From NCBI RefSeq assembly GCF_001937195.1, contig NZ_MSDO01000017.1:186001-250000 (forward strand): 64,000 nt of DNA. The letters run 5' to 3'. Below, piece by piece: positions 9,424 to 60,670 of this stretch. This DNA is from Salinicola socius. GTDB taxonomy: Bacteria > Pseudomonadota > Gammaproteobacteria > Pseudomonadales > Halomonadaceae. The number at the start of each line of letters is the position of its first letter. Within the stretch, counting starts at the first letter, position 1. The notes under the pieces are model-generated. The model saw only the letters and a program-made list of their open reading frames with translations. It did no database searches and was not told where the DNA came from. Position numbers and translations under genes: made by a program.

Positions 9424-9529
9424 CGCAATCACCTCTCAGGAGACGGCACGAAAACGGCTTGTCAGCGGCGCTCCGTATCGATCTCGACCATCACGAATTC
9501 AGGGTTTGTCATGTGCGAACAGATCGCTT

Positions 9530-10060
9530 TCAGCGTGGAGAGACCTGGAAATAGCCCACGTCACAGCCGTCTTCAGCACCGCTCTGAGTCTGCTCGGCGC
9601 GAGTGCGAACGTCGCTACCGCGCGCTTCGAGAATCTGATCCATCGCGCCGGCAAACCAGCCGGTGAACATGTACTCCTCGCGCTTGCCGGTCTTGCCGAG
9701 CTGGTAGACGAAACAGGAGTGCTCGAGGCGTACTCGAGCGGTTCCCGCGTCGAGCTCGATCGCCTCGGTGACGAACTTACCCCAGCCCCGCTGGGACAAT
9801 CGGTTCATGTAGTGCTCGAACACTTCGACACCCTCGATGCCATGCAGCTCGGCTTCCTTCTCGCACCAGAACCAGGCCGACTTGTAGCCGGCGTCGTAGA
9901 GGATCCTCGCGTAAGTCTCGACGCCCAGCGCTTGCTCGACGGCCGTATGGTTGTTGATGAAGAAGTGCCGCGGCACGTAGAGCATCGGCAGTGCATCGGT
10001 CGTCCAGACACCAGTATCGCTGTCCACGTCGATCGGCAGTTCCGGGGCTATTTGGGTCAT
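9530..10060 (-). CDS. DUF5943-type protein of the dimethylglycine operon
   Basis: A 176-residue soluble protein equivalent in position to PA5397, between the dipeptidase and dgcA. The fold may be related to 4-vinyl reductase (V4R) small-molecule-binding domains; that is from memory of the family and is uncertain. Start ATG 10058-10060 (MTQIAPELP) has GAGGTAA upstream; the open frame extends further only into the intergenic region. Conservation within dgc operons suggests an accessory role in betaine catabolism, but no activity can be assigned. Confidence 0.8.
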   Translation of the reverse strand: MTQIAPELPIDVDSDTGVWTTDALPMLYVPRHFFINNHTAVEQALGVETYARILYDAGYKSAWFWCEKEAELHGIEGVEVFEHYMNRLSQRGWGKFVTEAIELDAGTARVRLEHSCFVYQLGKTGKREEYMFTGWFAGAMDQILEARGSDVRTRAEQTQSGAEDGCDVGYFQVSPR

Positions 10061-10125
10061 TTCGGTTACCTCAAGAATTGTTCTTTGGCACGAGCCAAAC
10101 CTTCCAAGACGCTCGAGGAGCCGGC

Positions 10126-11103
10126 TTATTCGCCCCAGACGTCGCGTAGTGTCCGCACCCAGTTCTCTCCCATGATCTTGCGCACCACCGGCTCGGAGAG
10201 TCCGTGGTCCAGCAGCGCCTGAGTCAGGTTGGGGAACTCGCCGATGGTGCGGATGCCCTTGGGATTGATGATCTCGCCGAAGCGGGTCAGGCGGCGCGCG
10301 TAGCCCTTGTCGTGGGTCAGCCACTCGAAGAAGGCTTCGTCCTGGCCCTGGGTGAAGTCAGTACCGATGCCGATGGCGTCTTCGCCGACGATATTCATGA
10401 TGTAGACGATCGCTTCGACGTAATCCTCGATCGTGGCGTTGACGCCGGCACGCAGGAACGGGGTGAACATGGTGACGCCGACGAAACCGCCGTGATCGGC
10501 GATGAACTTGAGCTCGTCGTCACGCTTGTTGCGGGGATGTTCCTTGAGTCCGGTAGGCAGGCAGTGGGAGTAGCAGACCGGTTTTTTCGACTCGAGGATG
10601 ACTTCTTCCGAGGTCTTGGAGCCGACGTGAGAGAGATCGCACATCATCCCGACCCGATTCATCTCGGCGATCACTTCGCGCCCGTAGCCGGAGAGCCCGC
10701 CGTCGCGCTCGTAGCAGCCGGTGCCGACCAGATTCTGGGTGTTGTAGCAGAGCTGGGTAATCCCGACACCGAGCTTCTTGAAGATCTCGATGTAGCCGAG
10801 CTTGTCTTCGAAGGCGTAGGCGTTCTGGAAACCCAGGATGATGCCGGTCTTGCCCTCCTCCTTGGCGCGAGTGATATCGCGGGTGGTATGCACCGGACGC
10901 ACCAGCTCGGCGTTGTCACGCATCAACTGATTGACGCCAACGATGTTGTCGACGGTGGATTCGAAGTCCTCCCATACCGAAACGGTGCAGTTGGCGGCCG
11001 TCAGCCCTCCCTTGCGCATATCCTCGAACAGGGCACGATCCCATTTGGCGATGATCAGGCCATCGATGATGATGGCGTCGTCGTGGAGCGTTGACGTCGG
11101 CAT
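10126..11103 (-). CDS. M19 renal-dipeptidase-like protein of the dimethylglycine operon
   Basis: A 325-residue membrane-dipeptidase (M19) family protein, first gene of the operon and equivalent to PA5396. Start ATG 11101-11103 has a strong AAGGAGGAG site. Recognisable family blocks are MCDLSHVG, CYSHCLPTGLKEHPRN and GIGTDFTQG. The usual N-terminal HxD metal-binding pair of M19 (IDGHND in typical members) is replaced by IDGLII at residues 13-18, so a normal two-zinc site looks incomplete. Its role in betaine catabolism is unclear; it may not be a dipeptidase. Confidence 0.87.
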   Translation of the reverse strand: MPTSTLHDDAIIIDGLIIAKWDRALFEDMRKGGLTAANCTVSVWEDFESTVDNIVGVNQLMRDNAELVRPVHTTRDITRAKEEGKTGIILGFQNAYAFEDKLGYIEIFKKLGVGITQLCYNTQNLVGTGCYERDGGLSGYGREVIAEMNRVGMMCDLSHVGSKTSEEVILESKKPVCYSHCLPTGLKEHPRNKRDDELKFIADHGGFVGVTMFTPFLRAGVNATIEDYVEAIVYIMNIVGEDAIGIGTDFTQGQDEAFFEWLTHDKGYARRLTRFGEIINPKGIRTIGEFPNLTQALLDHGLSEPVVRKIMGENWVRTLRDVWGE

Positions 11104-11389
11104 GCGGAACTCCTCCTTGGTTTGTGCGCCTTTCAGGCCGTCGCGGCGTCGGATGGTGCGACCGGAGACCAGAAGACGAGCGTTCCGCGCAGCATATCCC
11201 CGCGCTCGCCTCACCCGACGACCGAAAGCGAATCCGAGTGTTCCGATTGCGCCACCTTCAATGTCCTGTACGCGACAGCGCGAGCCGGCGGTGCCGACGA
11301 TGCGAAGCGAGATTGACGCACGCGGGCGCGTTGGATAGAACGTTCAGATCCGCTGCTCACTACCGTCTCTGCCAGGGAAGACAGACCGA

Positions 11390-12127
11390 ATGTCCGATAT
11401 CGAACCATCGCGCCAGTCCAGCGGATGGCTGACAGGCGTGCGCGAGGCGATGCCCCTGCTGGGCGGCTACATCCCGGTGGCCGTCTCGTTCGGCCTGATC
11501 TCCACCCAGGCCGGCTTCAGTACCGCCGAAACCCTGGCGATCTCGGCCCTGATCTACGCCGGGGCCTCGCAGTTCCTGTTCGTCGGCATGATCGCCAGCG
11601 GCTCTCCGCTGTGGCTGACCGTGGCGATGACCCTGCTGATCAACGTGCGCCATGTCGTCTACGCCCCCAACATCGCCCCTTGGCTGCCGCAGAGCCGCTG
11701 GTGGCCGTGGCTGATGCACGGTCTGACCGATCAGGTCTTCGCCCTGGCCCACAGCCGTTTGCCCCAGTTGCCGGCATCCCGGCGTGTCGGCTGGTTCTTC
11801 GGTGCGGCCATGCTCGCCTGGCTCAGCTGGATCGCAGGCTCCCTGCTGGGCGCGGTCGCAGGGGAATGGCTGACGAGCCGCTGGCCGTTGCTCGGCGAAG
11901 TGATGCCCTTCGCGCTGCCGGCGCTGTTTCTGGTATTGATCGTGCCGCGATTCACCTCGCGGCGCTGGGCGGCCGCACTCGGTGTCACCATTGCCATCGC
12001 TCTGCTCTGCACGTTGACGGGATTGACCAATATCGGGATTCCGCTGGCAGCCGCCTGCGGCGCGCTCTGCTTCTACATGATCCGCCTGCCGGAGACGGCC
12101 GGGCCCACCCGGGGAGGACGCCCATGA
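11390..12127 (+). CDS. azlC: AzlC family branched-chain amino acid exporter, large subunit
   Basis: A 245-residue polytopic membrane protein with the AzlC hallmarks: GGYIPVAVSFGL near residue 25, ALIYAGASQFLFVG near 52 and LLINVRHVVYAP near 82. AzlC with AzlD exports branched-chain amino acids, including toxic analogues such as azaleucine, in Bacillus. The gene is divergent from the dgc operon, sharing a 286-bp intergenic region, and its stop overlaps azlD by ATGA. The ribosome site is weak (GGGAAG about 10 bases upstream). Confidence 0.88.
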   Translation: MSDIEPSRQSSGWLTGVREAMPLLGGYIPVAVSFGLISTQAGFSTAETLAISALIYAGASQFLFVGMIASGSPLWLTVAMTLLINVRHVVYAPNIAPWLPQSRWWPWLMHGLTDQVFALAHSRLPQLPASRRVGWFFGAAMLAWLSWIAGSLLGAVAGEWLTSRWPLLGEVMPFALPALFLVLIVPRFTSRRWAAALGVTIAIALLCTLTGLTNIGIPLAAACGALCFYMIRLPETAGPTRGGRP

Positions 12128-12471
12128 GCCTCTCACTCTGGATCGCCATGATCATCGCCGCTTTGGGCACCTATCTGCTCCGGCTGCTGCCACTGCTGTG
12201 GATACAGCGGCGACTGACGCGTACCGATGACGACGGCCCTGTCGATGCACTGCCGAAGTGGCTGGTGATTCTGGGCCCGATGATGATCGCCGCGGTGCTG
12301 GGCGTGTCGCTGGTGCCACGGACTGCCGATGTCCCCGGTTGGCTGGCGACGGTCATCGGACTCGGTGTGACGCTCGCGGTGTGGCGGCGGACACGCTCGT
12401 TGGGTTGGCCGGTGGTGGCTGGCGTATTCACTTTCGGGCTGATGGTCGTTGCGACCAGAATGGTCGTCTAG
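12124..12471 (+). CDS. azlD: AzlD family branched-chain amino acid exporter, small subunit
   Basis: A 115-residue hydrophobic protein with three to four membrane spans. The GTYLLRLLPLL segment near residue 15 and its position directly after azlC (ATGA overlap) identify AzlD. It is required with AzlC for export. A GC-rich hairpin at 12492-12515 follows and probably ends the transcript against the convergent regulator gene. Confidence 0.88.
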   Translation: MSLSLWIAMIIAALGTYLLRLLPLLWIQRRLTRTDDDGPVDALPKWLVILGPMMIAAVLGVSLVPRTADVPGWLATVIGLGVTLAVWRRTRSLGWPVVAGVFTFGLMVVATRMVV

Positions 12472-12491
12472 GTGACGCGGGCGAAACGACA

Positions 12492-12515
12492 TCGGGCGGC
12501 CCTGGGGCCGCCCGA
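12492..12515. terminator. perfect GC hairpin between convergent azlD and gbdR-like gene
   Basis: A 10-bp perfect stem (TCGGGCGGCC / GGCCGCCCGA) with a CTGG loop sits between two convergent stops. There is no clear U-run on either side, so termination efficiency is uncertain. Confidence 0.5.
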
Positions 12516-12540
12516 CCGATAGCGTTCCGATCCACCGCCT

Positions 12541-13662
12541 TCAGCCCAGCGCGATGCTGGCGTAGGTCGGCTCTCCCCGAGCATGGCTCAAGGCGACGGT
12601 GGCGCTGCTGGACTGCATCAGCGGTTCGCTGCCCGCCAGCGGGATTATCGCCGGCTCCAGCCTTCGAATCTTCAGCGTCTCGCCGCGATCCTCACGCGGT
12701 GGCGTACCGAAAAACTCCCGGTAGCACTTCGAGAAATGCGGCGTGGAGACGAAACCGCACGCCGAGGCGATTTCGATGATCGGCAGCGGCGTCTGCTTGA
12801 GCAGCTGCCGCGCTCGCGTCAGTCGCAGCTTGAGATAGTAGCGCGACGGCGAACAGTGGAGATGACGCTGGAACAGGCGTTCCAGCTGGCGCCGGGAGAC
12901 GTCGACGTAGTTCGCCAGTTCGTCGAGCTCGATCGGCTCCTCGATATTGGCTTCCATCAACGCCACGATTTCCAGCAGCTTGGGCTGCGTGGTGCCCAGC
13001 ACATGCTTGAGCGGCACCCGCTGCTGATCTTCCTCGCCCCGCACCCGTTCGTAGATGAACATCTCGGAGATGGCCGCCGACAGCTCCCGACCGTGATCGC
13101 GCCCGATCAGATTGAGCATCATGTCCAGCGGCGCGGTCCCCCCGGAAGCGGTGAAGCGATCGCGATCGATCGAGAACAGCCGCGTGCTCCAGGCCGTGCG
13201 CGGATAGGCTTCCTGAATCGCGGCCAGACACTCCCAATGGATGCTGGCATCGTAACCATTCAGCAGGCCGGCCTGAGCCAGCGCCCAGCTACCGGTACAC
13301 ACCGAACCGATTCGCCGTAGCTGGCGTTGACGGCTCTGCAGCCAGGTCAGCAATGCCGGCGTAACGGAGCGCTGCGGCGCGACGCCGCCACATACTACCA
13401 GCCAGTCGAGTCTCAACGGCGCGTGAGCGCTGGCGTCCGGCGTCACCTGCATGCCGTCGCTGGCTCTCACCGGCGCCCCGTCCATCGTCATTACGTACCA
13501 GCGGTAGAGTTCGCGGCCGGCGAGCTGGTTGGCCATGCGCAACGGCTCGATCGCCGAGGCGAGCGAGATCAGGGTGAAGTCTTCCAGCAGCAGAAAACCG
13601 AGTGTCTGGGGCTCAGGCGCAGCGCCTTTTCGGGCGGCGCCTTGAGGGGGATAGATTGCCAT
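12541..13662 (-). CDS. gbdR: GbdR-like AraC/GlxA family regulator of glycine betaine catabolism
   Basis: A 373-residue regulator with an N-terminal DJ-1/PfpI-like (GATase1) sensor domain (GSVCTGSWALA near residue 120) and a C-terminal AraC helix-turn-helix pair (about residues 225-320: VSRRQLERLFQRHL, IASACGFVSTPHFSK). A tail of about 50 residues follows the DNA-binding domain, as in Pseudomonas GbdR, which senses betaine and dimethylglycine and activates the gbc/dgc genes. Close linkage to the dgc operon supports that role. Start ATG 13660-13662 has TTGGAGGAG. Related GlxA regulators (carnitine, sarcosine) cannot be wholly excluded. Confidence 0.82.
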   Translation of the reverse strand: MAIYPPQGAARKGAAPEPQTLGFLLLEDFTLISLASAIEPLRMANQLAGRELYRWYVMTMDGAPVRASDGMQVTPDASAHAPLRLDWLVVCGGVAPQRSVTPALLTWLQSRQRQLRRIGSVCTGSWALAQAGLLNGYDASIHWECLAAIQEAYPRTAWSTRLFSIDRDRFTASGGTAPLDMMLNLIGRDHGRELSAAISEMFIYERVRGEEDQQRVPLKHVLGTTQPKLLEIVALMEANIEEPIELDELANYVDVSRRQLERLFQRHLHCSPSRYYLKLRLTRARQLLKQTPLPIIEIASACGFVSTPHFSKCYREFFGTPPREDRGETLKIRRLEPAIIPLAGSEPLMQSSSATVALSHARGEPTYASIALG

Positions 13663-14053
13663 TTCACTTCTCCTCCAAGGATATAACGGTGGTTATTGTT
13701 ATTACGGTTCCCTGGCGTCTGTCGCTCTCGGTCCATGGCGATTCATCAGCGCTGGACAGCTCCTGACAGCGACCGTTATCCGACTGTCCTTGCGTCTTTT
13801 CGGTCTGATTCGACTGTAATCCCTGTGACGGTACGACGCATGCGTTTTTATCTCTGCGCGACATCGTCATCGTCATTAGGCACCTCGATGTCGTTTTTAG
13901 AACAAACTATCTCCCCACGCTGCAGCGGTGTCGCGATTCGAGCAGAACGTGAAAAAGTGTTACCGGGCGGAGGTGATAACGAGTATCATTCACAGCGTTA
14001 CCGTTACCCTTGTCGCCTCGTCGTTCGCCGCGACCCACCGTGGGATTTCTGCC
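13663..14053. other. divergent intergenic region between gbdR-like gene and efeU
   Basis: This 391-bp gap carries no convincing gene. It holds the outward promoter of the regulator, near an AT-rich GTTATTGTTATTACGG stretch at 13690-13706, and the Fur-box-containing efe promoter at 13960-13993. Upstream in-frame codons continuous with efeU exist from 13928 but have no ribosome site. Confidence 0.6.
13975..13993 (+). promoter_or_regulatory. putative Fur box overlapping the efe operon -10 element
   Basis: The 19-mer starting GATAACGAG and ending ATCATTCAC matches the GATAATGATAATCATTATC Fur consensus at 14 of 19 positions. It overlaps a possible -10 (TATCAT, 13984-13989; 5 of 6) and lies 60 bp before the efeU start. 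This is consistent with iron repression of the ferrous uptake operon. The -35 (TTACCG, 13960-13965) is poor. Confidence 0.65.
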
Positions 14054-14902
14054 ATGTTGGTACCGTTTCTGATCATGCTGAGAGAGGGGCTGGAAGCCGC
14101 TCTCGTCGTCGGCATCATTGCCAGCTATCTACGCCAGACCGGTCGCGCCGCCTGGATGCCTGCGGTGTGGATCGGCATTTTTCTGGCGGTCTCCTTCGCC
14201 CTGTTCGTCGGCGCCGGGCTGCAGTTTGCGAGCGCGGAGTTCCCGCAGCGCCAGCAGGAACTGTTCGAAGCGATAGTGGGCTTCTTCGCCGTCGGCGTTC
14301 TGACCTGGATGGTGCTGTGGATGCGCCGCGCCGCTCGCGGTATGCGCGACGAGCTGACACAGGCGCTCGACCAGGCGTTCCGCAGCGGTCGGCGGCACAC
14401 CTACGCGCTGATCGCGATGGTATTTCTCGCCGTGGCGCGCGAAGGACTGGAATCGATCTTCTTTCTGCTGGCGGTCTTTCAGCAGAGTCACGGCGCTCAT
14501 GCACCACTGGGGGCACTCCTCGGTCTGGGCCTGGCCGCGCTCATCGGTCTGGCACTCTACCGCGGCAGCCTGCGGTTACCGCTGGGGCACTTCTTCCGGG
14601 CCACCGGTCTGTTCATTCTGCTGGTCGCCGCCGGGCTGCTTTCGGGGTCCGTCCGCGCGCTGCATGAAGCGGGACTCTGGAACCATGCTCAGCAAGTGGT
14701 TTTCGACCTGAGCGATAGCCTGCCGCTGGATACGCCGTTGGGTTCGCTGTTCTCCGGCATCTTCGGCTATCAACCAGCGCCGACCGTCAGCGAGGTCGTG
14801 GCATACCTCGGCTATCTGCTCGTTGCGCTGTGGCTGTTACGCACGCCCTCGGCGCGAGCCTACGTAACGGCGCCGGCGTCTTCCCGGCAGGAACGAGACT
14901 GA
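14054..14902 (+). CDS. efeU: EfeU/FTR1 family ferrous iron permease
   Basis: A 282-residue FTR1-type permease with about seven membrane spans. The two diagnostic REGLE iron-binding motifs are at residues 10-14 and 129-133. In E. coli, EfeU imports Fe2+ with EfeO and EfeB under acidic or aerobic conditions. The start chosen is ATG 14054 (MLVPFLIMLREG), which puts the first motif at the usual distance from the N terminus; a longer frame to 13928 crosses the Fur box. It is first in an operon with efeO only 3 bp downstream. Confidence 0.92.
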   Translation: MLVPFLIMLREGLEAALVVGIIASYLRQTGRAAWMPAVWIGIFLAVSFALFVGAGLQFASAEFPQRQQELFEAIVGFFAVGVLTWMVLWMRRAARGMRDELTQALDQAFRSGRRHTYALIAMVFLAVAREGLESIFFLLAVFQQSHGAHAPLGALLGLGLAALIGLALYRGSLRLPLGHFFRATGLFILLVAAGLLSGSVRALHEAGLWNHAQQVVFDLSDSLPLDTPLGSLFSGIFGYQPAPTVSEVVAYLGYLLVALWLLRTPSARAYVTAPASSRQERD

Positions 14903-14905
14903 CCC

Positions 14906-16063
14906 ATGACCCGGACCGCCGCTCAACTTGCCCCGCCATCACCGCGCGCCATGCGCCTGGGCCTGGTGCTTTCCCTGCTCCTGATGATCGTCGCGCTGGG
15001 CGTTTTCACGCTCTCGCTGAAGGCCGTTCAGCCCGTCGGCGACAGTGATTACATCGTCAACGTCACCGCCACCGGCTGTCAGCCCGATCAACTGGAAGTC
15101 GCCGCCGGACGACGCACCTTCACCGTGGTCAACCAGTCCGACCGCGCCATCGAATGGGAGATCATCGACGGCGTGATGGTGCTCGCGGAGCGCGAGAATA
15201 TCGCGCCCGGATTGCGTCAGCCGCTGACCGCCACGCTGAAAGCCGGCGACTACGTGATGACCTGCGGCCTGCTCAGCAACCCGCAGGGTGCGCTGCATGT
15301 CAGGGCCAGCGAGTCGGACGCCGAAGCTTCGCCACTTCCGGCGACCGCCTTCATCGGGCCATTGGCGGAATATCGCGTCTATACCACCCTGCAGCTGCGA
15401 AAGCTGCAGGCCAGCGCCGGCGACCTGCGCGATGCCATCGCCACCGATGACCTCGAGGCGGCCCGCCAGGCGTTCCGCCAGGCGCGTCGTATCGATCTGC
15501 ATCTGGCCATGCCGATCGGTCTTTACAGCGATCTCGATCAGCGTCTCAACGCTCATGCCGACGATTTCGAGAAACGCGGTGAGGACCCTGAATTCGTCGG
15601 CTTCCATCGGCTTGCCGAGGGCCTGTTCACCGATGAAAGCACTGCCGGGTTGAACGCGATTGCCGACCGGCTGGTCACGGATGTGGACACGCTTGCCGCT
15701 CGACTCAAGAGTGCATCGATTCCTCCCGCGCAGCTGGCCGACGGCACCGCTCGCGTGCTCGAGACGTGGCTCGACCATCACCGTGACGACCGCACCATCG
15801 GGGAGCGTGATCTCGACGATCTCGTGGCACTGACGGAAGGCGCCGACAAGATCGTCTCGTTGCTCTCGCCGCTGCTGGAGCGTCAGTCTCCCGATACCTT
15901 GCAGACGCTCCAGACCCAGTTGAATTCGCTGCAGCAGGAACTCCCGACCGCGTCCGGATCATCGACATCGGGGCAAGGCGACGCCGATGGCCTGCTGCGG
16001 GCGACCGATGCCGTGGCCAAGTCGCTCGCCGGCATCAACCAAGCTCTCACTCTGGAAGGTTAA
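14906..16063 (+). CDS. efeO: EfeO: cupredoxin plus imelysin (M75) iron-uptake protein
   Basis: A 385-residue exported protein anchored or secreted through a hydrophobic segment at about residues 17-37. The N-terminal cupredoxin domain includes GCQPDQ near 58 and a YVMTCG copper/iron-site loop near 113. The M75 imelysin domain covers about 140-380. It delivers ferrous iron to EfeU. The M75 signature normally reads HxxE; here it is His234-Arg-Leu-Ala-Glu238, so the glutamate is displaced by one residue, unlike the intact HRLE in the second imelysin protein of this operon. Confidence 0.9.
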   Translation: MTRTAAQLAPPSPRAMRLGLVLSLLLMIVALGVFTLSLKAVQPVGDSDYIVNVTATGCQPDQLEVAAGRRTFTVVNQSDRAIEWEIIDGVMVLAERENIAPGLRQPLTATLKAGDYVMTCGLLSNPQGALHVRASESDAEASPLPATAFIGPLAEYRVYTTLQLRKLQASAGDLRDAIATDDLEAARQAFRQARRIDLHLAMPIGLYSDLDQRLNAHADDFEKRGEDPEFVGFHRLAEGLFTDESTAGLNAIADRLVTDVDTLAARLKSASIPPAQLADGTARVLETWLDHHRDDRTIGERDLDDLVALTEGADKIVSLLSPLLERQSPDTLQTLQTQLNSLQQELPTASGSSTSGQGDADGLLRATDAVAKSLAGINQALTLEG

Positions 16064-53017: not shown

Positions 53018-53746
53018 TCAGACCGTCAGCTCGACGTGGTGATGCAGACAGCCCACGATACTGCCCTCGTTGGCCAACGCCTGCATATCCAGCATATGCA
53101 CCCAACCCCGCGAAAGCTTGAGCAGCCCTTCCTGTCGAAACGCCGTCAGCGTACGACTGACGTGGACCGGCGACAGCCCCAACGCATCGGCGAGCTGCTG
53201 TTGAGACAACGGCAAGCGAAAGCACTCCCCCGGGGTATGACGGTTACGTCGCAGACGGCAGGCAATTTCGAACAGCAGATAGGCCACGCGTTGACGGGCA
53301 CTGCGACGAGACAGATGCACCAGGCGCTCACTCAACACGGCCTGCTGATAGGAGCAGGCGGCGAAGCAGACCGACATGAGACTCGATGACTCACGGAACA
53401 GGTTCAGTAGCTGTCGGGTCGCGACCGGCACGATGGCGCCGTCCTCCAGCATGGCGACGCTAGACGGGCGCTGCTTGAATGCAAAATCACTCAGCCCGAT
53501 GACATCGCCGGGTAAATAGATCTCGAGAATATGGCGGGTACCACTTTCCAGATAACGGGACGCGTAGGCCCAACCCTTGCGCAAGATATAAAAATCCCGC
53601 GCCATATCTCCTTCATGCCACAGTACCTGTCCCTTGATAACGTCAGTCGCAGGCCCCTCCAGAGCATCGAGCTGTCGCCGGTCATTGTCGGAGAGTTTTG
53701 CATAGTGACTGAAATGGTGGGCAATACATCCTTCCTGCTGACCCAT
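53018..53746 (-). CDS. Crp/Fnr family regulator without Fe-S cysteines (first copy)
   Basis: A 242-residue regulator with a cyclic-nucleotide-binding-type sensor domain (YLPGDVIGLSDF near residue 100) and a C-terminal winged helix (LSQQQLADALGLSPVHVSRTL near 185). The FNR N-terminal cysteine set is absent; only one N-terminal Cys occurs. ATG 53744-53746 was preferred over an ATG 13 codons upstream that lacks a ribosome site. A perfect 15-bp palindrome (53760-53774) lies just upstream. Signal unknown. Confidence 0.87.
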   Translation of the reverse strand: MGQQEGCIAHHFSHYAKLSDNDRRQLDALEGPATDVIKGQVLWHEGDMARDFYILRKGWAYASRYLESGTRHILEIYLPGDVIGLSDFAFKQRPSSVAMLEDGAIVPVATRQLLNLFRESSSLMSVCFAACSYQQAVLSERLVHLSRRSARQRVAYLLFEIACRLRRNRHTPGECFRLPLSQQQLADALGLSPVHVSRTLTAFRQEGLLKLSRGWVHMLDMQALANEGSIVGCLHHHVELTV

Positions 53747-54097
53747 GCACGCTTGCCTTCTTGAATTTTTCAAGCATGACAGCATGTTAGCTGGATCAAT
53801 TACATAACATCGGTTAGGTAGACAGGGGAAAACCGCCGCCAGGATCACTGGAGCAGCCGCCATCCGGCGTCGACTGGCAACCCGCCAACGGCTGATTCAG
53901 TGAGGACTTATACTGGGCTCGCGCCGGTGCTCGGGGCTTGATCCTCAAGCGCTGTAGAACTCAGGGGCTTGAAGAGCCCACGACTGACATCGACGACAGC
54001 AGCAACGGGTCGCGCCAACCCCGCTCGACCCGACTCCGAATGACCGATATTTTATATTAGAATTGCCTAATTATAAGAAGCGAGACAGGGACTCGAA
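53747..54097. other. 351-bp divergent gap between a Crp/Fnr gene and a small gene
   Basis: No gene seen. It contains the palindrome CTTGAA-TTT-TTCAAG (53760-53774) 14 bp from the regulator start, an AT-rich TGTTATGTAATTG stretch on the minus strand that may be its -10 region, and an AT-rich TTTTATATTAG run (54050-54060) before the small gene at 54098. Confidence 0.5.
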
Positions 54098-54973: not shown

Positions 54974-55667
54974 GCTTGTCTACTCCCCAAGGCCTTCTCA
55001 CGATAACGCTCATCATAGCAAGTGGGCGTCACCGCAAGCCATGCAGGGAGGTGCGGCAATTGGTCACCGAGGTCGCGCGCGGACCGTCGATGGACGAAAA
55101 AGCTGATGCTTTTTTCACGACACATTTCATGCATTGATGACGATGCGAAGTTCAGTGTAGCCGCTGCAGCGGGAAATCTGTCGTCGTCACGCTTTTCACA
55201 TCGCACTTTACCCTGACGTGCTTATCCCAACGCGCTTATCCCAACGCGCTTATCCCAACGCGCTTATCTCCGTGATCTGTCGAACACCAGGAATAAAGGG
55301 AGCATCTCAATCGACACCCTCCATCAGTAACATGCCGCCGATAAAGCCCGAGGCACATCTCTTTCTTGGAAAATGCCAAACAAAATCATTAATTTCCCGG
55401 CCCATTCCCCGTTCAAAGCATTAATCTGGATAAATAGATTCGATATTAAGGCAGCGTCCTTAATCTGCGTTGCCAACTTGTTTCTGATCGTCGGTTAGCC
55501 TCACAGAGTGCCAGGGAACGCCGCCCTTTTTCCGTGACGACAGGCAGCGCCGGTTCCAGCACGCTCATCGGAACTTGCTGGTTTTTCGCTGAGACGGTCG
55601 TAGCCTCTTGTGGAGGGATGTTGCCGATCTGGAAATATCCGGTGAGCGTTCAATAACGACTATTCTC
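54974..55667. other. 694-bp intergenic stretch with a minisatellite
   Basis: No supported gene. A 14-bp tandem repeat lies at 55221-55268. Bases 55370-55460 are AT-rich (GCATTAATCTGGATAAATAGATTCGATATTAAGG), with a loose TTCAAA-17-TAGATT promoter match. This is the left border of the accessory segment containing the four-gene cluster. Confidence 0.55.
55221..55268 (+). repeat. 14-bp minisatellite, three full copies plus a partial
   Basis: CTTATCCCAACGCG is repeated perfectly at 55221, 55235 and 55249, followed by a truncated CTTATC copy. It is intergenic. Confidence 0.95.
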
Positions 55668-56852
55668 ATGGATGAATGGGCGCGCCGCCCGACAGGATTG
55701 CTAGCCGTGATGCATACCCCGGTGTCGAACGAACTCGACATGCCCTCTCCCGACGAGGTCGAGACGTTGATTCAACTGGCCAAGGAATGGCCCTCACCGG
55801 CTGACGAGCCCGAAGTCCTGGCAAACCGATTCGCGCATTTGCTGACGTTGCAGCTTGATCAGCTCCCGTTACCCGCAGGCGGTCGAACGCTGGAGCGGTG
55901 GCAGCGCCTGTCGAACGTCGCCAGCCTCGACCTCGGCCTGGCCAAGCTGTTCGAAGGCCATACCGATGCCATGGCTATCCTCGAAGAGATTTCCCGTCCT
56001 CGACGCTACCCGGCGACCGCGCGCTGGGCCGTCTGGGCTGCCGAGCCACCGTTCGCCCGACTGACGCTCGCGCCACGAGGACCGCTGCCAATGGCCGACG
56101 GTGACCGCGTCGTGCTCAACGGCAAGAAGGCGTGGTGTTCCGGGGCCCATGCGGTGACCCATGCACTGGTGACGACCTGGTACGAGACAGTTCCCTATCT
56201 CGCGGCCGTCGACTTGGCGCAGCCGGGCGTCAGGCTGATGCAGTCGGGCTGGTCCGCCGTCGGTATGGCCGCGACCGCAAGCATCGAGGTTGAGTTCGCT
56301 GACGTCGAAGCGACCCTCGTCGGCGGCGCGGAGGCATATCTGCAACGGCCCGGCTTCTGGCATGGCGGTATCGGCGTCGCCGCCTGCTGGTGGGGCGGCG
56401 CCGTGCGCATCGGCGACACCCTGCTGGCCGCAACGACCTCCGAGGAGCCACATCGATTGGCCCACCTCGGCATGGTGGACGTGGTTCTCGACAATGGCGC
56501 TTCGAGGCTGCGTGATGCTGCAGCCTGGATCGACTGCCATCCTCACCAGAATGCCCGGCATCTTGCGCTGTCGGTGCGCGCCGCTATCGATGACATCGTC
56601 TCGACGGTCATCGAGCACGCCGGGCGGGCGCTTGGCGCTGGCCCCTACTGTCGTGACGCAGCGTTCGCCAGAATGGTCGCGGACCTGCCGGTGTTCGTGC
56701 GTCAGGCACACGCGGAGCGGGACCTCGAGGCGATAGGACGAAGCCTGCAGCAACGCGCCCGGCAAAATAGCGCCACCGGCACCGAAAAGGCCTGCGCGCC
56801 CGATGATAGCGGCCCCAAACATTGCGCGCGCCAGGGATGGAGATTGACGTGA
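55668..56852 (+). CDS. acyl-CoA dehydrogenase-like flavoprotein of a four-gene cluster
   Basis: A roughly 394-residue protein with acyl-CoA dehydrogenase fold features: GKKAWCSGA in the middle domain (about residue 150), GVRLMQSGWSAVGMAATAS followed by VEFADVEATLVGG (about 185-220), and a helical C-terminal domain. The start is uncertain: ATG 55668 is used; ATG 55710 and 55740 are in frame, and none has a good ribosome site. It is divergent from typical fatty-acid enzymes, and a catalytic glutamate cannot be placed. It is the first gene of a coupled cluster; its TGA overlaps the next ATG by one base. Confidence 0.78.
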   Translation: MDEWARRPTGLLAVMHTPVSNELDMPSPDEVETLIQLAKEWPSPADEPEVLANRFAHLLTLQLDQLPLPAGGRTLERWQRLSNVASLDLGLAKLFEGHTDAMAILEEISRPRRYPATARWAVWAAEPPFARLTLAPRGPLPMADGDRVVLNGKKAWCSGAHAVTHALVTTWYETVPYLAAVDLAQPGVRLMQSGWSAVGMAATASIEVEFADVEATLVGGAEAYLQRPGFWHGGIGVAACWWGGAVRIGDTLLAATTSEEPHRLAHLGMVDVVLDNGASRLRDAAAWIDCHPHQNARHLALSVRAAIDDIVSTVIEHAGRALGAGPYCRDAAFARMVADLPVFVRQAHAERDLEAIGRSLQQRARQNSATGTEKACAPDDSGPKHCARQGWRLT

Positions 56853-57643
56853 TGAGTGCTGATGGCATCAATCCCGATGCAGCGCTGGCCGCCGATGATC
56901 GCCGGATACTCGGCACGGGCACGGCGCTCGACGAGTGGAATCAGTGGCCCGGGCTTGCCGCCCTCCCCAGGGTCGACGCCGAGACAGTGGCTCCCGCGGG
57001 AGCCCGCATCGTCGTCGTCGCCCCACACCCAGACGACGAGATTCTTGGCTGCGGTGCGCTGCTGCAACAGTGGTCGGCACTTGGCCGCGAACTGCTGGTG
57101 GTTTCGGTCACCGATGGCACCGGCAGCCATCCAGGCTCCAGCGCGTGGCCAGAAGAACGATTGGGCCAAATAAGGGCGGAAGAGAGTCGGCGAGCGTTAT
57201 CGCGACTCGGTATCCAGCGCCTGGATGTCATTCGGCTGCATCTCACCGACACCCGGGTCGGCGAAGAGACCCATGAACTGGCCTATCGTCTGCATCAGCT
57301 GCTGCGAGCCGATGACGTGATCGTCACCACCTGGCGGGGTGACGGCCACCCGGATCACGAGGCGACGGGACGGGTCTGTGCCCGGTTGGCGGAGGATCGC
57401 AAGCTGGCGCTGATCGAACTGCCCATCTGGATGTGGCATTGGGCCGAGCCGGGCGACAGCCGTGTTCCCTGGCACCGGGCCAGACGCATTGCGGTCGGTA
57501 CGCCCGAGCTGGCGCGCAAACGAACGGCGATGATCGAGCATGCCAGCCAGTGCGAAGCCGATCCCTCGACCGGCCGGCCGGCGGTCCTCTCGAGTCACAC
57601 GCTCGCTCGGCTGATGCAGGACCACGAAGTCGTGCTGCTATGA
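56852..57643 (+). CDS. PIG-L family deacetylase of the four-gene cluster
   Basis: A 263-residue zinc deacetylase of the PIG-L/LmbE family. PHPDDE is at residues 58-63, and the distal zinc His lies in GDGHPDHEATGR. Relatives remove acetyl groups from N-acetylglucosaminyl compounds (GPI, mycothiol, bacillithiol synthesis). ATG 56852 overlaps the upstream stop (TGATG), with GGAG ten bases before; an ATG five codons earlier is possible. Its own stop overlaps the methyltransferase by ATGA. Confidence 0.88.
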   Translation: MSADGINPDAALAADDRRILGTGTALDEWNQWPGLAALPRVDAETVAPAGARIVVVAPHPDDEILGCGALLQQWSALGRELLVVSVTDGTGSHPGSSAWPEERLGQIRAEESRRALSRLGIQRLDVIRLHLTDTRVGEETHELAYRLHQLLRADDVIVTTWRGDGHPDHEATGRVCARLAEDRKLALIELPIWMWHWAEPGDSRVPWHRARRIAVGTPELARKRTAMIEHASQCEADPSTGRPAVLSSHTLARLMQDHEVVLL

Positions 57644-58245
57644 GTGACCCGCGACTGTTGGCACACTTCGAGCGGCTGCATGCCGATTCCATCGATCCCT
57701 GGGGGTACGACACCCGCTGGTACGAGGCCCGCAAGCGCGCGCTGACCCTGGCGATGCTGCCTCGCCAGCGCTATCGCCACGGCTTCGAGCCTGGCTGTTC
57801 CATCGGCGCCCTGAGCGCGGAACTGATTCAGCGTTGCGACGCCTTTACCGGTTGGGATGCCAGCCCCAGCGCCGTGGCCAGCGCCAGAAGACGCCTCGGC
57901 CATCTCGATAACGCCCGCTTCGAACAGCGAACGTTACCCACCGCCTTGCCCGCGTCCACCTTCGATCTCATCGTTTTCAGCGAGGTGGGCTATTACCTGC
58001 AGGAGCCAGCATTGGTCGCCACGATCTACAACTTGCAGCGAGCGCTACGACCCTCCGGCGATCTGATCGCCTGTCATTGGCGTCACCCTCTCCAGGACGG
58101 CTATCGCTCCGGCGATGACGTGCATGAACGCTTGCATGACTGCCTCGAACTTCATGCCGTATCGAGCCTGGTGGAACGTGATTTTCGCATCGACCTGTGG
58201 TCTCGGGATGCGCTCGATGTGGGACGCTGGGAGGCATTGAAATGA
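57640..58245 (+). CDS. NodS-like SAM-dependent methyltransferase of the four-gene cluster
   Basis: A 201-residue class I methyltransferase. SAM motif I (FEPGCSIGALSAEL) is at about residues 49-62, DASPSAVASAR near 74, and LIVFSEVGYYL near 108. The arrangement is like NodS, which N-methylates deacetylated chitooligosaccharides. A deacetylase directly upstream is consistent with methylation of a freed amine, but this is inference. ATG 57640 overlaps the deacetylase TGA (ATGA). Confidence 0.87.
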   Translation: MSDPRLLAHFERLHADSIDPWGYDTRWYEARKRALTLAMLPRQRYRHGFEPGCSIGALSAELIQRCDAFTGWDASPSAVASARRRLGHLDNARFEQRTLPTALPASTFDLIVFSEVGYYLQEPALVATIYNLQRALRPSGDLIACHWRHPLQDGYRSGDDVHERLHDCLELHAVSSLVERDFRIDLWSRDALDVGRWEALK

Positions 58246-58291
58246 CGTTCGCCACGGCAGTGAACCGATTGCCTCGCCAGAGCACCGCGCC

Positions 58292-58960
58292 TTGATCGGG
58301 ATCGTGGTACCGGCTCATGACGAGGAGGAAACGCTCGACGCCTGTATTGCCTCGCTCAGGCTCGCCGCCTGCCATCCGCAATTGGACGGTGAGGCCGTTC
58401 GGATCGTGATCGTGCTGGATGCCTGCACCGACGACTCGGCGGCGATCGCCCGGCGGGCAGGGGTCGATGTACTGGAAGTCGCCTTTACCAACGTTGGGCT
58501 GGCTCGCCATCGCGGCGCGAACTGGCTGATAGACCAGGGCGCGCGCTGGCTGGCGTTCACCGACGCCGATACCGTCGTCGAAGCGGACTGGCTGGTGCAC
58601 CAACTCACCAGTCGCGCCGACGCCGTCTGTGGTGGTGTCCACCTGCTCGATTGGGCGAATCTGTCCCAGGAGATCCGTCGCCGCTATCTGGCTCATCGTC
58701 GTTCAGTCGCCGATGGACGCCATATTCATGGCGCCAACCTGGGCGTCAGCGTTGCCGCCTATCTCGCCGTGGGTGGATTCGCGCCCCTGGTCGCCCACGA
58801 AGACGTCAAGCTCGTCGGCACCTTGCAACAACACGGATTTACCATCGACTGGTTGCAGACCATGCGCGTCAAGACCAGCTCGCGACGCGACGCCAGAGCC
58901 CCTGAAGGCATGGGCGCCCTGCTACGGTCGCTGGAAAGAAATGATGCCGGTATTGGATGA
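58292..58960 (+). CDS. family 2 glycosyltransferase of the four-gene cluster (TTG start or frameshifted 5' end)
   Basis: A 222-residue GT-A fold transferase: IGIVVPAHDEEETLDAC at the N terminus, a DAD-type metal motif at residues 91-93 (TDADT), and HGANLGVS with AHEDVKL further on. The only near-cognate start in frame is TTG 58292, with a poor ribosome site. The coupled ATG at 58242 (overlapping the methyltransferase stop) is in another frame and ends after 17 codons at 58293. Either the protein starts at TTG or a one-base indel has split the 5' end. Donor and acceptor unknown. Confidence 0.78.
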   Translation: MIGIVVPAHDEEETLDACIASLRLAACHPQLDGEAVRIVIVLDACTDDSAAIARRAGVDVLEVAFTNVGLARHRGANWLIDQGARWLAFTDADTVVEADWLVHQLTSRADAVCGGVHLLDWANLSQEIRRRYLAHRRSVADGRHIHGANLGVSVAAYLAVGGFAPLVAHEDVKLVGTLQQHGFTIDWLQTMRVKTSSRRDARAPEGMGALLRSLERNDAGIG

Positions 58961-59069
58961 AGAACGCACAGTGACCGTGTGCGCCACAATGATCCTGCGC
59001 GCCCACTCCTTGAGCCGAAACCGATTCCACCGATGCGTCATCAGCGTTTCATCCCTCCCAAGTCTTTTA

Positions 59070-59210
59070 AGCTCTGTCTGAAAAATCGGCGAGCGATGGC
59101 CAGACTAGGCAAAAATTGACGAAAAAGCGGAGTTTACGAGGTGTAAATGAGCATTTTGAGTCAATTTTTAACGCCGGATGGGCGAGCGCAGGCATTTTTC
59201 AGACAGAGCG
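59070..59210. mobile_element. 141-bp MITE-like element with 17-bp terminal inverted repeats and TA flanks
   Basis: Ends read AGCTCTGTCTGAAAAAT and, reverse-complemented, CGCTCTGTCTGAAAAAT: 16 of 17 identical. A TA dinucleotide borders both sides (59068-59069 and 59211-59212), as after IS630/Tc1-mariner-type insertion. Inside are further inverted repeats: AAAAATTGAC (59111-59120) with GTCAATTTTT (59160-59169), and TTTAC (59133-59137) with GTAAA (59143-59147). There is no coding capacity, so it would move only in trans. Confidence 0.75.
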
Positions 59211-59450
59211 TAGCTTCTCTTCTCAGTGCCGCAGCTAGCGAATACGTGCGGCGTGACAGCCGTGGGCCGCACCAACTCTCGCGACCTTTCTTTCAGGAGC
59301 AGTAAAAAGATTCCAATCAACGATCCAAAAAGAGGGATTTTTTTGTAATCAACCGAGTTGCACATAAGTTAATTTTCACATCGACTTTTCCGTCTATAAC
59401 AACGCTTAGCGTTAGCCGCACTCTAAAACAAGCTAAAAATCCAACAACAA

Positions 59451-59464
59451 TTGACACAGATCAA
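59451..59464. promoter_or_regulatory. FNR/ANR-type box
   Basis: TTGAC-ACAG-ATCAA matches the TTGAT-N4-ATCAA consensus in 9 of 10 fixed positions, with exact spacing. It lies 216 bp before the small gene at 59680 and 376 bp before the Crp/Fnr gene, so a direct -41.5 activator position for either start is not established. Confidence 0.55.
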
Positions 59465-59679
59465 GTTTGAAAAGGATTGGACAATTACTGGTGGAATACA
59501 GCAGGTTGCACCTAACTAAAACTAGCCTTACCAAAAGGAAATAAAAAACGTCATTTCTTAACTACAATGAATAACATTTAAGAACACGATCCACTCGACG
59601 GGAATTGGATATCCACTAGATTCATAAGCAGTGGCAACGCCAAACCACGACATGAACCCAAGGATAGGGAGAGTTTCGT

Positions 59680-59778
59680 ATGAGTTATTTCAACCCGCGT
59701 AAATTTCATGACTATCGCCCGGACACACCGGGTCCGGCTGATACAAGGACGGCCAATCAGGTCGATCAACCTGCATAG
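59680..59778 (+). CDS. small protein, 32 aa
   Basis: A 32-codon frame from ATG 59680 to TAG 59778 with a strong GGGAGAG ribosome site seven bases upstream. The product begins MSYFNPRKFHDYRPD and is Pro/Asp-rich with no membrane segment. It sits between the FNR-type box and the Crp/Fnr gene, 61 bp before the latter, so it may be a leader or an independent small protein. No family recognised. Confidence 0.5.
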   Translation: MSYFNPRKFHDYRPDTPGPADTRTANQVDQPA

Positions 59779-59839
59779 AAAGAATTTCAAGTCAAACCCG
59801 GCGAGCAATATGACCGGGTATTCATCGAGGTAGATTTCC

Positions 59840-60670
59840 ATGTCTTCGTTAGTCGAAGCCGCCGCGCCATCGCTCAACATTTCCCAGCGCCCCGCGGCGA
59901 ACTCACAGCCGTGGCAAGGTTATTCACTTTATTTCGAGATTCTTTCGCGTCACTCGCCGCTGTCGATCACCAATCGTGAAACCTTGACCGAACTCCAGCA
60001 AGCGCCACGCCGGTTCAAAAAAGGCAGCGTGATCAAGAATCACGAATTGAACACCAAGTATGTGCTGGCCATTCAGAATGGCTGGGCGTGTTCCTGTCGC
60101 GTCACGGAAGAGGGCAAACGTCAGATCATCGATCTCTATCTACCGGGTGACATCGTGGGCCTGCGCGACTATCACGCAGGCGGGCGCTTCGATGAAGTCA
60201 TCATGCTCACCGAGGGTCTGGTCATCCCCATGCATAAATCCCAACTCGACCTGGGGATGCAGAAAGATCACAGCCTGGTGAATGCCGTGCTGGCGACCTC
60301 CATGCATCAATGCAACATCATGGCGGATCGGCTCAACAATCTGATCAGCCACGACGCCACGACCCGGATCGCCTATTTCATTCTGGAGCTGCATGCACGT
60401 CTCAATCTGGCGCGTGGCGAAATCCAGGAACTGACGCTTCCCGTTTCCCAACAGGTCATCGGCGATTTACTGGGAATGACCAATGTGCACGTCTGTCGCT
60501 GTCTCAGTCAGCTCGAGTTCCAGGGGCTGCTGACGCGCGACAAGGAGTCGCGCAACATTCGAATTCTCGATTATGCAGCCTTGTTGACGTTAGCCGAATT
60601 CAACACGTCCTACCTATACTCTTGCCGTGTTGATAACCCTAGAGCCAGCCGTCCTTTGAATCCACATTGA
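59840..60670 (+). CDS. Crp/Fnr family regulator without Fe-S cysteines (second copy)
   Basis: A 276-residue regulator. The sensor domain contains NGWACSCRVTEEGKRQI and YLPGDIVGLRDY (about residues 80-115), and the C-terminal winged helix VSQQVIGDLLGMTNVHVCRCL lies near 205-225. The N-terminal cysteine ligands of FNR are absent. It resembles the regulator at 53018-53746 in the effector-domain core but has a longer N terminus and C-terminal tail. GAGGTAG precedes the ATG. Signal and targets unknown. Confidence 0.87.
   Translation: MSSLVEAAAPSLNISQRPAANSQPWQGYSLYFEILSRHSPLSITNRETLTELQQAPRRFKKGSVIKNHELNTKYVLAIQNGWACSCRVTEEGKRQIIDLYLPGDIVGLRDYHAGGRFDEVIMLTEGLVIPMHKSQLDLGMQKDHSLVNAVLATSMHQCNIMADRLNNLISHDATTRIAYFILELHARLNLARGEIQELTLPVSQQVIGDLLGMTNVHVCRCLSQLEFQGLLTRDKESRNIRILDYAALLTLAEFNTSYLYSCRVDNPRASRPLNPH

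Follow-up and report, generated by a model that had tools for sequence, protein, structure and literature searches.

Nod factor modification combines three activities: NodC is a family 2 glycosyltransferase (GT2), NodB, a member of family PF01522, removes an N-acetyl group, and NodS is an N-methyltransferase. MshA and BshA, the glycosyltransferases of mycothiol and bacillithiol synthesis, belong to family GT4, and among the flavin mononucleotide (FMN) monooxygenases KijD3 and DnmZ are N-oxygenases of amino sugars. Compatible solutes help to decide bacterial survival of drying and salt, and the list of known ones is short. The present work concerns a window of 64,000 nucleotides from Salinicola socius (contig NZ_MSDO01000017.1, positions 186,001 to 250,000), in which four adjacent genes encode a flavoenzyme with acyl-CoA dehydrogenase (ACAD) fold, a PIG-L family N-deacetylase, a NodS-like S-adenosylmethionine (SAM)-dependent methyltransferase and a short GT2 glycosyltransferase. 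Gene orders are written below with the letters A, D, M and G, respectively.

We describe the conservation of these genes as a unit, their families, their coupling and their neighbours, and we infer from these a donor, an acceptor, an order of steps, an oxidation and a biological role. The odds are about even (probability roughly 0.5) that the cassette, which is self-contained and patchily distributed, would make a small N-modified stress glycoside via a four-step route; the joint figure stands at this level because the last steps are put forward as the most likely ones and not as required.

Conservation of the four genes as a unit

Four plus-strand open reading frames (ORFs) occupy positions 55668-56852, 56852-57643, 57640-58245 and 58292-58960 in the ORF list of the window, in agreement with a preliminary description of this DNA, which had seen four genes running in one direction. 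The end of the flavoenzyme gene (55707..56852 in our reading) and the ATG of the PIG-L gene (56852..57643) both lie at 56852, an overlap of 1 nt; alternative in-frame starts of the latter are GTG 56849, which would give 4 nt, and ATG 56837. The PIG-L and methyltransferase (57640..58245) genes overlap by 4 nt, and the GT2 gene (58292..58960) opens with a TTG at 58292, 46 nt beyond the methyltransferase gene, both features being common to the Salinicola relatives L088 and L089. Sizes of the overlaps and of the gap are as originally given; only the mention of overlaps at the first three joins needs correcting, as there are three joins in all and two of them overlap. Likewise, the first gene had been drawn from ATG 55668, which is probably too far upstream. 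GTG 55707 or ATG 55710 is the probable start, because the ORF of the Salinicola relatives opens at a GTG that aligns with 55707. In the AlphaFold model of the protein translated from 55668 (P0001), residues 1-16 and 18-22 have a predicted local distance difference test (pLDDT) score below 50.

Nine of 18 listed genomes of the same genus, counting that of the window itself, have the flavoenzyme, as do 27/151 genomes of the family, consistent with the accessory character ascribed to this region. At 27 of 27 family loci (L003-L029, from 26 genomes, the window's own excluded), A, D and M follow one another on one strand; these loci are short, with GT2 beyond most of them. In an order sample of 293 genomes, flavoenzyme and methyltransferase were found in an identical set of 12 (chance 1/C(293,12), about 1.5e-21, a value that ignores phylogeny). 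PIG-L occurred in the same 12 and in G538, GT2 not being searched there. G538 carries this PIG-L at C69:18024-18749 and lacks A and M at the thresholds used; in another genome, G546, PIG-L lies about 12 kb from flavoenzyme and methyltransferase.

A sample of the phylum, screened with alignment A1 (alignments A1 to A8 are all hand-picked subsets), contained the flavoenzyme in 35/398 genomes. The methyltransferase stood beside it at 30/30 of the phylum loci L040-L069 and PIG-L at 25/30; four of the genomes behind these loci (G000, G003, G015 and G036) also belong to the family set. In a class sample, flavoenzyme matches were obtained in 11/274 genomes at E 0.001, giving ten new loci (L030-L039): A-D-M in L030, A-D at a contig end in L031 and G-A-D-M in L033, while six others, with weak or no profile match, were taken as ordinary acyl-CoA dehydrogenases. 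Carriers further include Acinetobacter and Halomonas/Salinicola, the Actinomycetota Kitasatospora and Rubrobacter, and a cyanobacterium, Nostoc, with GT2 on the opposite strand. Matches were present in 61 plasmid records; of 18 examined, chosen for diversity, two had no gene annotation at the cassette and one, from Methylobacterium, carried the flavoenzyme alone. A distant blastn search of E. coli genomes with the PIG-L/methyltransferase stretch gave no match. At L147 (Pseudomonas anatoliensis), about 5.6 kb, perhaps an insertion, separate flavoenzyme and PIG-L (approximately 10041-15643).

For closer comparison we used 80 named loci, the best 80 of at least 566 relatives (at least 598 pattern matches in species-representative contigs). 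All 80 contain the methyltransferase, 72 contain PIG-L and 68 contain GT2 on the same strand, with one more on the opposite strand. Starts at exactly -4 nt were counted at 59/72 A-D, 62/72 D-M and 56/68 M-G junctions, counts biased towards overlaps, as the start closest to a 4-nt overlap was taken. The order A-D-M holds at all these family loci and varies in distant lineages, where G-A-D-M is found in several and D-M-G-A in Legionella lytica. Taken together with the recurrent overlaps, the identical distribution of A and M upholds the original view of one coupled cluster, and the four genes almost certainly form a conserved cassette with one joint function.

Stress genes around the cassette

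The preliminary description mentioned neither the wide distribution described above nor the recurrent proximity of the cassette to genes for trehalose, sucrose, catalase and DNA end joining. Neighbours were counted by homology to a chosen gene set that includes TreY, TreZ, MalQ, GlgX, Ku/LigD, KatE and CsbD and excludes manganese (Mn) catalase. Trehalose/glycogen genes (TreY, TreZ, MalQ, GlgX) lie in the flank of 47/80 named loci, and at least one tested stress gene in that of 57/80, mostly from related Pseudomonas; because these Pseudomonas loci are related, the 47 do not represent 47 independent events. The glgX stop codon lies at most 65 nt from the chosen flavoenzyme start at 40/80 loci, and at exactly -4 nt in 12. 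Outside this group, the order otsA-A-D-M-G-otsB is found in two Comamonas species, the copy of Acinetobacter johnsonii has a catalase and otsA/otsB nearby, that of Paracoccus treZ and a catalase, and that of Legionella otsB and a GH65 gene. Catalase genes also accompany copies in Sulfitobacter, Novosphingobium and Cupriavidus, Ku and LigD genes the Bradyrhizobium copy, and CsbD and DUF883/YqjD genes the Pandoraea copy. In Salinicola relatives, an Mn-catalase gene immediately precedes the cassette (L089:6100-6927, L088, L003, L004); none was found in the window, whose upstream DNA is different.

In G546, a nearly gapless run encodes a GT4-S6PP protein (sucrose-phosphate synthase/phosphatase architecture), another glycosyltransferase, GT2, methyltransferase and flavoenzyme. 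Near this cluster we also noted a gene (L204:4012-4947) whose beginning seems to be partly repeated at 9122-9514, each copy being followed by a repeated membrane-protein-like start. By eye the gene resembles an ectoine hydroxylase.

The trehalose operon of P. aeruginosa PAO1 is described as glgA, treZ, malQ, treY and glgX, without cassette genes (PMC8084333), and in P. putida LS46 glgX is followed by a hypothetical protein and an autotransporter (PMC4636370). Given these descriptions, the cassette seems to be an optional addition to this type of Pseudomonas trehalose/glycogen operon.

A table of RNA-sequencing data for A. baumannii lists ACICU_02432-02435 as one operon, annotated as glycosyltransferase, SAM-dependent methyltransferase, LmbE protein and putative acyl-CoA dehydrogenase-related protein, with expression lowered 31- to 62-fold in two colistin-dependent mutants, along with that of trehalose-6-phosphate synthase and phosphatase (otsAB) and of a catalase; in the parts consulted, the authors do not discuss this operon (PMC5660220, Table 2). 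These genes were matched to the cassette by annotation and order, not by sequence, and A. baumannii does carry the cassette (L084). In another report, four genes of like names adjoin blsA (PMC6240043). No function for the four-gene set was found in the literature searched, most subscription papers lying outside it, and the absence of an established product noted earlier stands within that scope. The combination with an ACAD-fold oxidase/oxygenase in a stress setting appears to be undescribed there, its component families being known.

All these neighbours could also mean that the genes merely travel together within a shared stress regulon and serve separate pathways, a view in keeping with the unrelated kinds of stress gene around the cassette and with the variable order in distant lineages. 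We consider it decidedly improbable, as the families stay joined after rearrangement and across phyla, A and M co-occur exactly in 12/293 genomes and 4-nt overlaps dominate. The cassette as one unit very probably belongs to a stress or osmotic response.

Enzyme families and the proposed route

The GT2 protein of the window (222 aa) matches PF00535 with 46.7 bits, and residues D91/D93 (DxD) and E170/D171 (ED) are invariant in the 28 rows of alignment A7. Its likeness to solved enzymes, among them chondroitin synthase, is weak (best E-value 3.5e-12). Two more specific assignments were tried and rejected: the mycofactocin glycosyltransferase model TIGR03965 scores 37.5 (cut-off 280) and the arsenosugar glycosyltransferase model TIGR04283, though the best NCBIfam match, 44.7 (cut-off 182).

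PIG-L is identified by PF02585 (99.8 bits, above cut-off), and the metal-site motifs APHPDDE and GDGHPDHE are intact in the window protein, the former in 72/72 PIG-L copies of the named loci. Its closest solved structures are diacetylchitobiose deacetylases (E 2e-15), followed by TT1542 and LnmX, and teicoplanin deacetylase is among its relatives. The genome, a 4.17-Mb assembly, contains one PF02585 match only. The cluster of Rubrobacter indicoceani encodes, in this order, a polysaccharide deacetylase, A, M, an FAD (flavin adenine dinucleotide) oxidoreductase and a glycosyltransferase; its first protein belongs to PF01522 (92 bits), its methyltransferase to PF05401, and the stretch yielded no PIG-L. 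As an unrelated deacetylase family here takes the place of PIG-L, this single case suggests that removal of an acetyl group would be a needed step of the pathway. A deacetylase of the Rubrobacter type was near none of 14 other loci (tblastn, E 0.1), namely 13 without PIG-L between A and M and Cupriavidus L074.

Some further observations concern these proteins. After the Rubrobacter cluster follow arsM, an ArsR-type regulator gene and arsH (L077:15330-16945); their position and the match of GT2 to the arsenosugar model are probably a coincidence. A second, downstream PIG-L is present at 30/80 named loci, many of them from Pseudomonas (for example L093:12241-12999), with HPGDE instead of HPDDE in 30/30 and a second motif lacking the His before DH in all 29 where it was found; judged by these motifs, the Pseudomonas protein is a probable catalytically dead paralogue, retained in position. 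Moreover, PIG-L relatives occur in two records labelled Acinetobacter phage MD-2021a (CAKLQH020000004.1 and CAKLQF020000002.1; 232 and 306 kb), which may be mislabelled plasmid or host DNA.

A glycosyltransferase combined with a PIG-L enzyme also follows the logic of low-molecular-weight thiol or cofactor synthesis of the mycothiol/bacillithiol type, to which the locus had earlier been likened, and the catalase neighbours suggest redox defence. The PIG-L matches to BshB1 (42.6 bits), BshB2 (38.2) and MshB (31.6) are weak, however, and far under the cut-offs of 182.5, 195.25 and 224.35; the glycosyltransferase is a GT2 and not a GT4, no cysteine ligase appeared among the identified recurrent neighbours and an N-methylated amine would be unsuited to the MshC route. 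Membership of such a pathway is therefore hardly to be expected.

The methyltransferase matches PF05401 (52.3 bits, cut-off 24). In profile comparisons with the PDB it finds 4isc (E 5e-73), NodS 3ofj (E 7.9e-31) and phosphoethanolamine-type N-methyltransferases (6.5e-15); 4isc belongs to the same family, matching the copy of P. syringae pv. cilantro at E 6.8e-97, and a literature search found no paper on it as a Pseudomonas syringae methyltransferase. By this measure NodS 3ofj is the nearest characterised structure. With the chitobiose deacetylases nearest to PIG-L and the PF01522 protein of Rubrobacter, the resemblance to Nod factor chemistry recognised before is borne out. PADLOC matches the methyltransferase alone (mad2, 8.9e-15, over part of a 492-position model) and none of the other three proteins, and an anti-phage defence system was rejected.

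The same three likenesses would fit a Nod-factor-like lipochitooligosaccharide or another exported signal. Nevertheless, neither an acyltransferase nor a large chitin synthase was observed in the set, whose glycosyltransferase is short; the methyltransferase scores 65 bits with the NodS nodulation model NF041650 (cut-off 300); carriers include Acinetobacter, Kitasatospora and Halomonas/Salinicola; and no recurrent exporter was found, though the copies in Acinetobacter and Bradyrhizobium have a major facilitator superfamily gene nearby. Such a product is very unlikely.

The flavoenzyme has been the most difficult to place. In Pfam the window protein matches PF02770 alone, with 27.9 bits (cut-off 33.3), which falls short of an acyl-CoA dehydrogenase domain. 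It has no match to ACAD C-terminal models at E 0.01. Among 23 family members, matches at the same E-value are to PF02770 (18/23), PF00441 (7/23), PF02771 (3/23) and PF08028 (3/23). The AlphaFold model (mean pLDDT 85.9) has an overall ACAD fold, which FMN monooxygenases also have. A profile of alignment A4 (23 hand-picked rows) ranks DszC (1.6e-18), the thermophilic DszC, TdsC (5.3e-17), MsuC (1.4e-16) and KijD3 (1.5e-14) highest in the PDB, ahead of ColB1 (2.4e-12), the best classical acyl-CoA dehydrogenase, 2dvl (2.5e-12), and TcsD (4e-12); two chains named acyl-CoA dehydrogenase type 2 domain reach 1e-14, one of which, 5z8t, is titled monooxygenase. The narrower alignment A6 consists of P0001 and 41 of 48 loci, these being the 80 named loci minus near-duplicates; L095, L096, L114, L128, L137, L149 and L165 were excluded by hand. 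Its five best matches are of the DszC/MsuC types (3e-11 to 3e-8), followed by ColB1 (5.4e-8), two type 2 chains, TcsD (7e-7), DnmZ and KijD3, and isobutyryl-CoA dehydrogenase (4.9e-5). Consistently, SfnB (21/23) and DszC (9/23) are the commonest NCBIfam matches among the 23 members, although the window protein scores 25.9 bits with the SfnB model (cut-off 430.9). In profile alignments a KxxCSGA segment is common to the family, DszC and MsuC, and C157, S158, G159 and A160 are invariant in the 42 rows of A6; presumably this segment is located at the flavin site. On these profiles, oxygenase-type chemistry is somewhat favoured over that of a dehydrogenase. The description of the protein as acyl-CoA dehydrogenase-like is thus right for the fold and probably misleading for the chemistry, and the objection that the first gene fits no pathway is weakened by the nearness of the profiles to FMN monooxygenases.

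From these assignments we infer the following route. GT2 would attach an N-acetyl amino sugar, most probably donated by UDP-GlcNAc, to a small acceptor; PIG-L, a zinc enzyme, would take off the N-acetyl group; the NodS-like methyltransferase would N-methylate the freed amine with SAM; and the flavoenzyme, as an oxygenase dependent on reduced FMN (FMNH2) from a reductase encoded elsewhere, would oxidise the product, with the nitrogen or a position adjoining it as the most likely site. The resulting small N-modified glycoside would be made along with trehalose and catalase under desiccation, osmotic or stationary-phase stress. Deacetylation of the amino sugar followed by N-methylation is the part we consider likely. 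Oxidation at nitrogen itself is a tentative suggestion, favoured because KijD3 and DnmZ oxidise amino sugars there. That the acceptor would be the stress disaccharide itself, trehalose, or sucrose in the GT4-S6PP lineage, is unlikely; it would account for the different partners of the cassette from lineage to lineage, namely TreYZ-GlgX, OtsA/OtsB and sucrose-type genes, and the product, an amino-trisaccharide both N-methylated and N-oxidised, would then be a compatible solute or radical scavenger of a new class.

Catabolic pathways, too, often employ deacetylases and flavin monooxygenases, so that the cassette might degrade or detoxify an N-acetylated or N-methylated sugar instead of making one. 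A SAM-dependent methyltransferase and a glycosyltransferase consume activated donors, though, solute biosynthesis is often the setting and no uptake system appeared among the identified recurrent neighbours, which makes this highly improbable.

A number of observations weigh against the synthetic route proposed above. In Foldseek comparisons the flavoenzyme model has a template modelling (TM) score of 0.72 to isovaleryl-CoA dehydrogenases (8sgr, 4kto), compared with 0.55-0.63 for DszC, MsuC, KijD3 and DnmZ and about 0.60 for ColB1, with similar E-values throughout. The single sequence P0001 has the dehydrogenase TcsD as its top match in the PDB (6u1v, E 0.0038), and ColB1, which dehydrogenates carrier-bound cysteine, is placed high by both fold and profile. 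The C-terminal His of MsuC (TLHDP segment), presumably catalytic in DszC, aligns with Q346, which is invariant in A6 and A4, and no flavin reductase is found among the cassette genes. GT2 is, by its sequence, too far from solved enzymes for donor or acceptor to be named. Clear partners are lacking in the stretches seen at L032, which has a clear flavoenzyme alone (188 bits), and at L076, with a flavoenzyme relative; PIG-L is absent from 8/80 named loci, the PIG-Ls of those eight genomes being distant and outside the flank. Finally, 23/80 loci, Salinicola loci among them, have no tested stress gene in the flank, no catalase or trehalose gene of the tested kinds was found in the window, and the annotation of the Roseomonas and Sphingomonas FARSPH plasmid copies shows no trehalose, catalase or Ku gene.

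The results for the flavoenzyme would suit a true dehydrogenase, which would either desaturate an acyl chain, the cassette then making or editing an N-acylated glycolipid from which PIG-L would remove the acyl group, or dehydrogenate the amine itself; matches to PF00441 in 7/23 members and the teicoplanin deacetylase among the PIG-L relatives agree with this. On the other hand, no acyltransferase, acyl carrier or CoA ligase was seen in the conserved set, classical acyl-CoA dehydrogenases lie farther from the profiles than DszC and MsuC do, SfnB and DszC dominate the NCBIfam matches, and the window protein does not match the ACAD C-terminal models. This explanation as a whole seems unlikely to us, with a ColB1-like amine dehydrogenation as a live alternative for the flavoenzyme step.

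Families that stay together across Proteobacteria, Actinomycetota and a cyanobacterium, and that are joined to several different stress operons, suggest that a metabolite has been overlooked in many Pseudomonas, Acinetobacter, Paraburkholderia, Comamonas and Halomonadaceae. Such a metabolite would also supply a role for proteins at present annotated as acyl-CoA dehydrogenase, LmbE/PIG-L or NodS.

The Salinicola locus and comparison with known systems

Upstream of the operon, an alignment of Salinicola relatives reveals a conserved block (55655..55677, plus strand) containing CTATTCT, or CTACGCT in L005/L006; the alignment has seven rows, including two pairs of apparent duplicates (L088/L003 and L089/L004). 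CTATTCT resembles the -10 element of sigma-S promoters and is a candidate only. A sigma-70 promoter scan returned 0 sites where 1.7 were expected. The same-genus genome G003 (L003) and Salinicola corii L088 have their upstream DNA in common. Further upstream in the window, at 55208-55277, lies a 14-nt tandem repeat, TTATCCCAACGCGC. Genes for CRP/FNR-type regulators are located on either side of the cassette, at 53018-53863 (minus strand) and 59840-60670 (plus strand), and one is likewise found downstream of it in Salinicola L089; these proteins could be regulators of the cassette. The wider neighbourhood in the window includes a DUF883 gene and a CsbD-like stretch.

Directly downstream, and outside the proposed pathway, is a miniature inverted-repeat transposable element (59068..59212) with 19-nt inverted ends of 95% identity. 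It has 48 matches in its own genome, including itself, fragments and some opposite-strand matches at the same place, six of them at 97-100%. The G+C content falls from 0.63-0.68 in the cluster to 0.47 at 59000-59999, and both the mobile element and the AT-rich DNA are as initially reported.

Compared with Nod factor modification by NodC, NodB and NodS, the cassette has the same logic of GT2 transfer, de-N-acetylation and N-methylation, its methyltransferase is nearest to NodS and the Rubrobacter cluster has a PF01522 deacetylase. It differs in its usual choice of PIG-L, in the additional flavoenzyme and in a setting of stress and not symbiosis; neither an acyltransferase nor a synthase of NodC size was seen, and the score with the NodS model is far under the cut-off. 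The FMN monooxygenases DszC, TdsC, MsuC, SfnB, KijD3 and DnmZ provide the closest profiles to the flavoenzyme, with KxxCSGA in DszC and MsuC. By contrast, the cassette copies measure 332-398 aa (48 non-redundant loci), have Gln for the C-terminal His of MsuC, miss the SfnB cut-off and come without a linked reductase. Diacetylchitobiose deacetylase, the closest solved structure to PIG-L, has its metal-site motifs retained in the cassette protein, whose annotated neighbours include no chitin gene. PDB 4isc is a member of the cassette's own methyltransferase family. Finally, whereas the PAO1 operon, as described (PMC8084333), has none of the cassette genes, in many Pseudomonas species the cassette forms a downstream extension of the trehalose/alpha-glucan operon glgA-treZ-malQ-treY-glgX.

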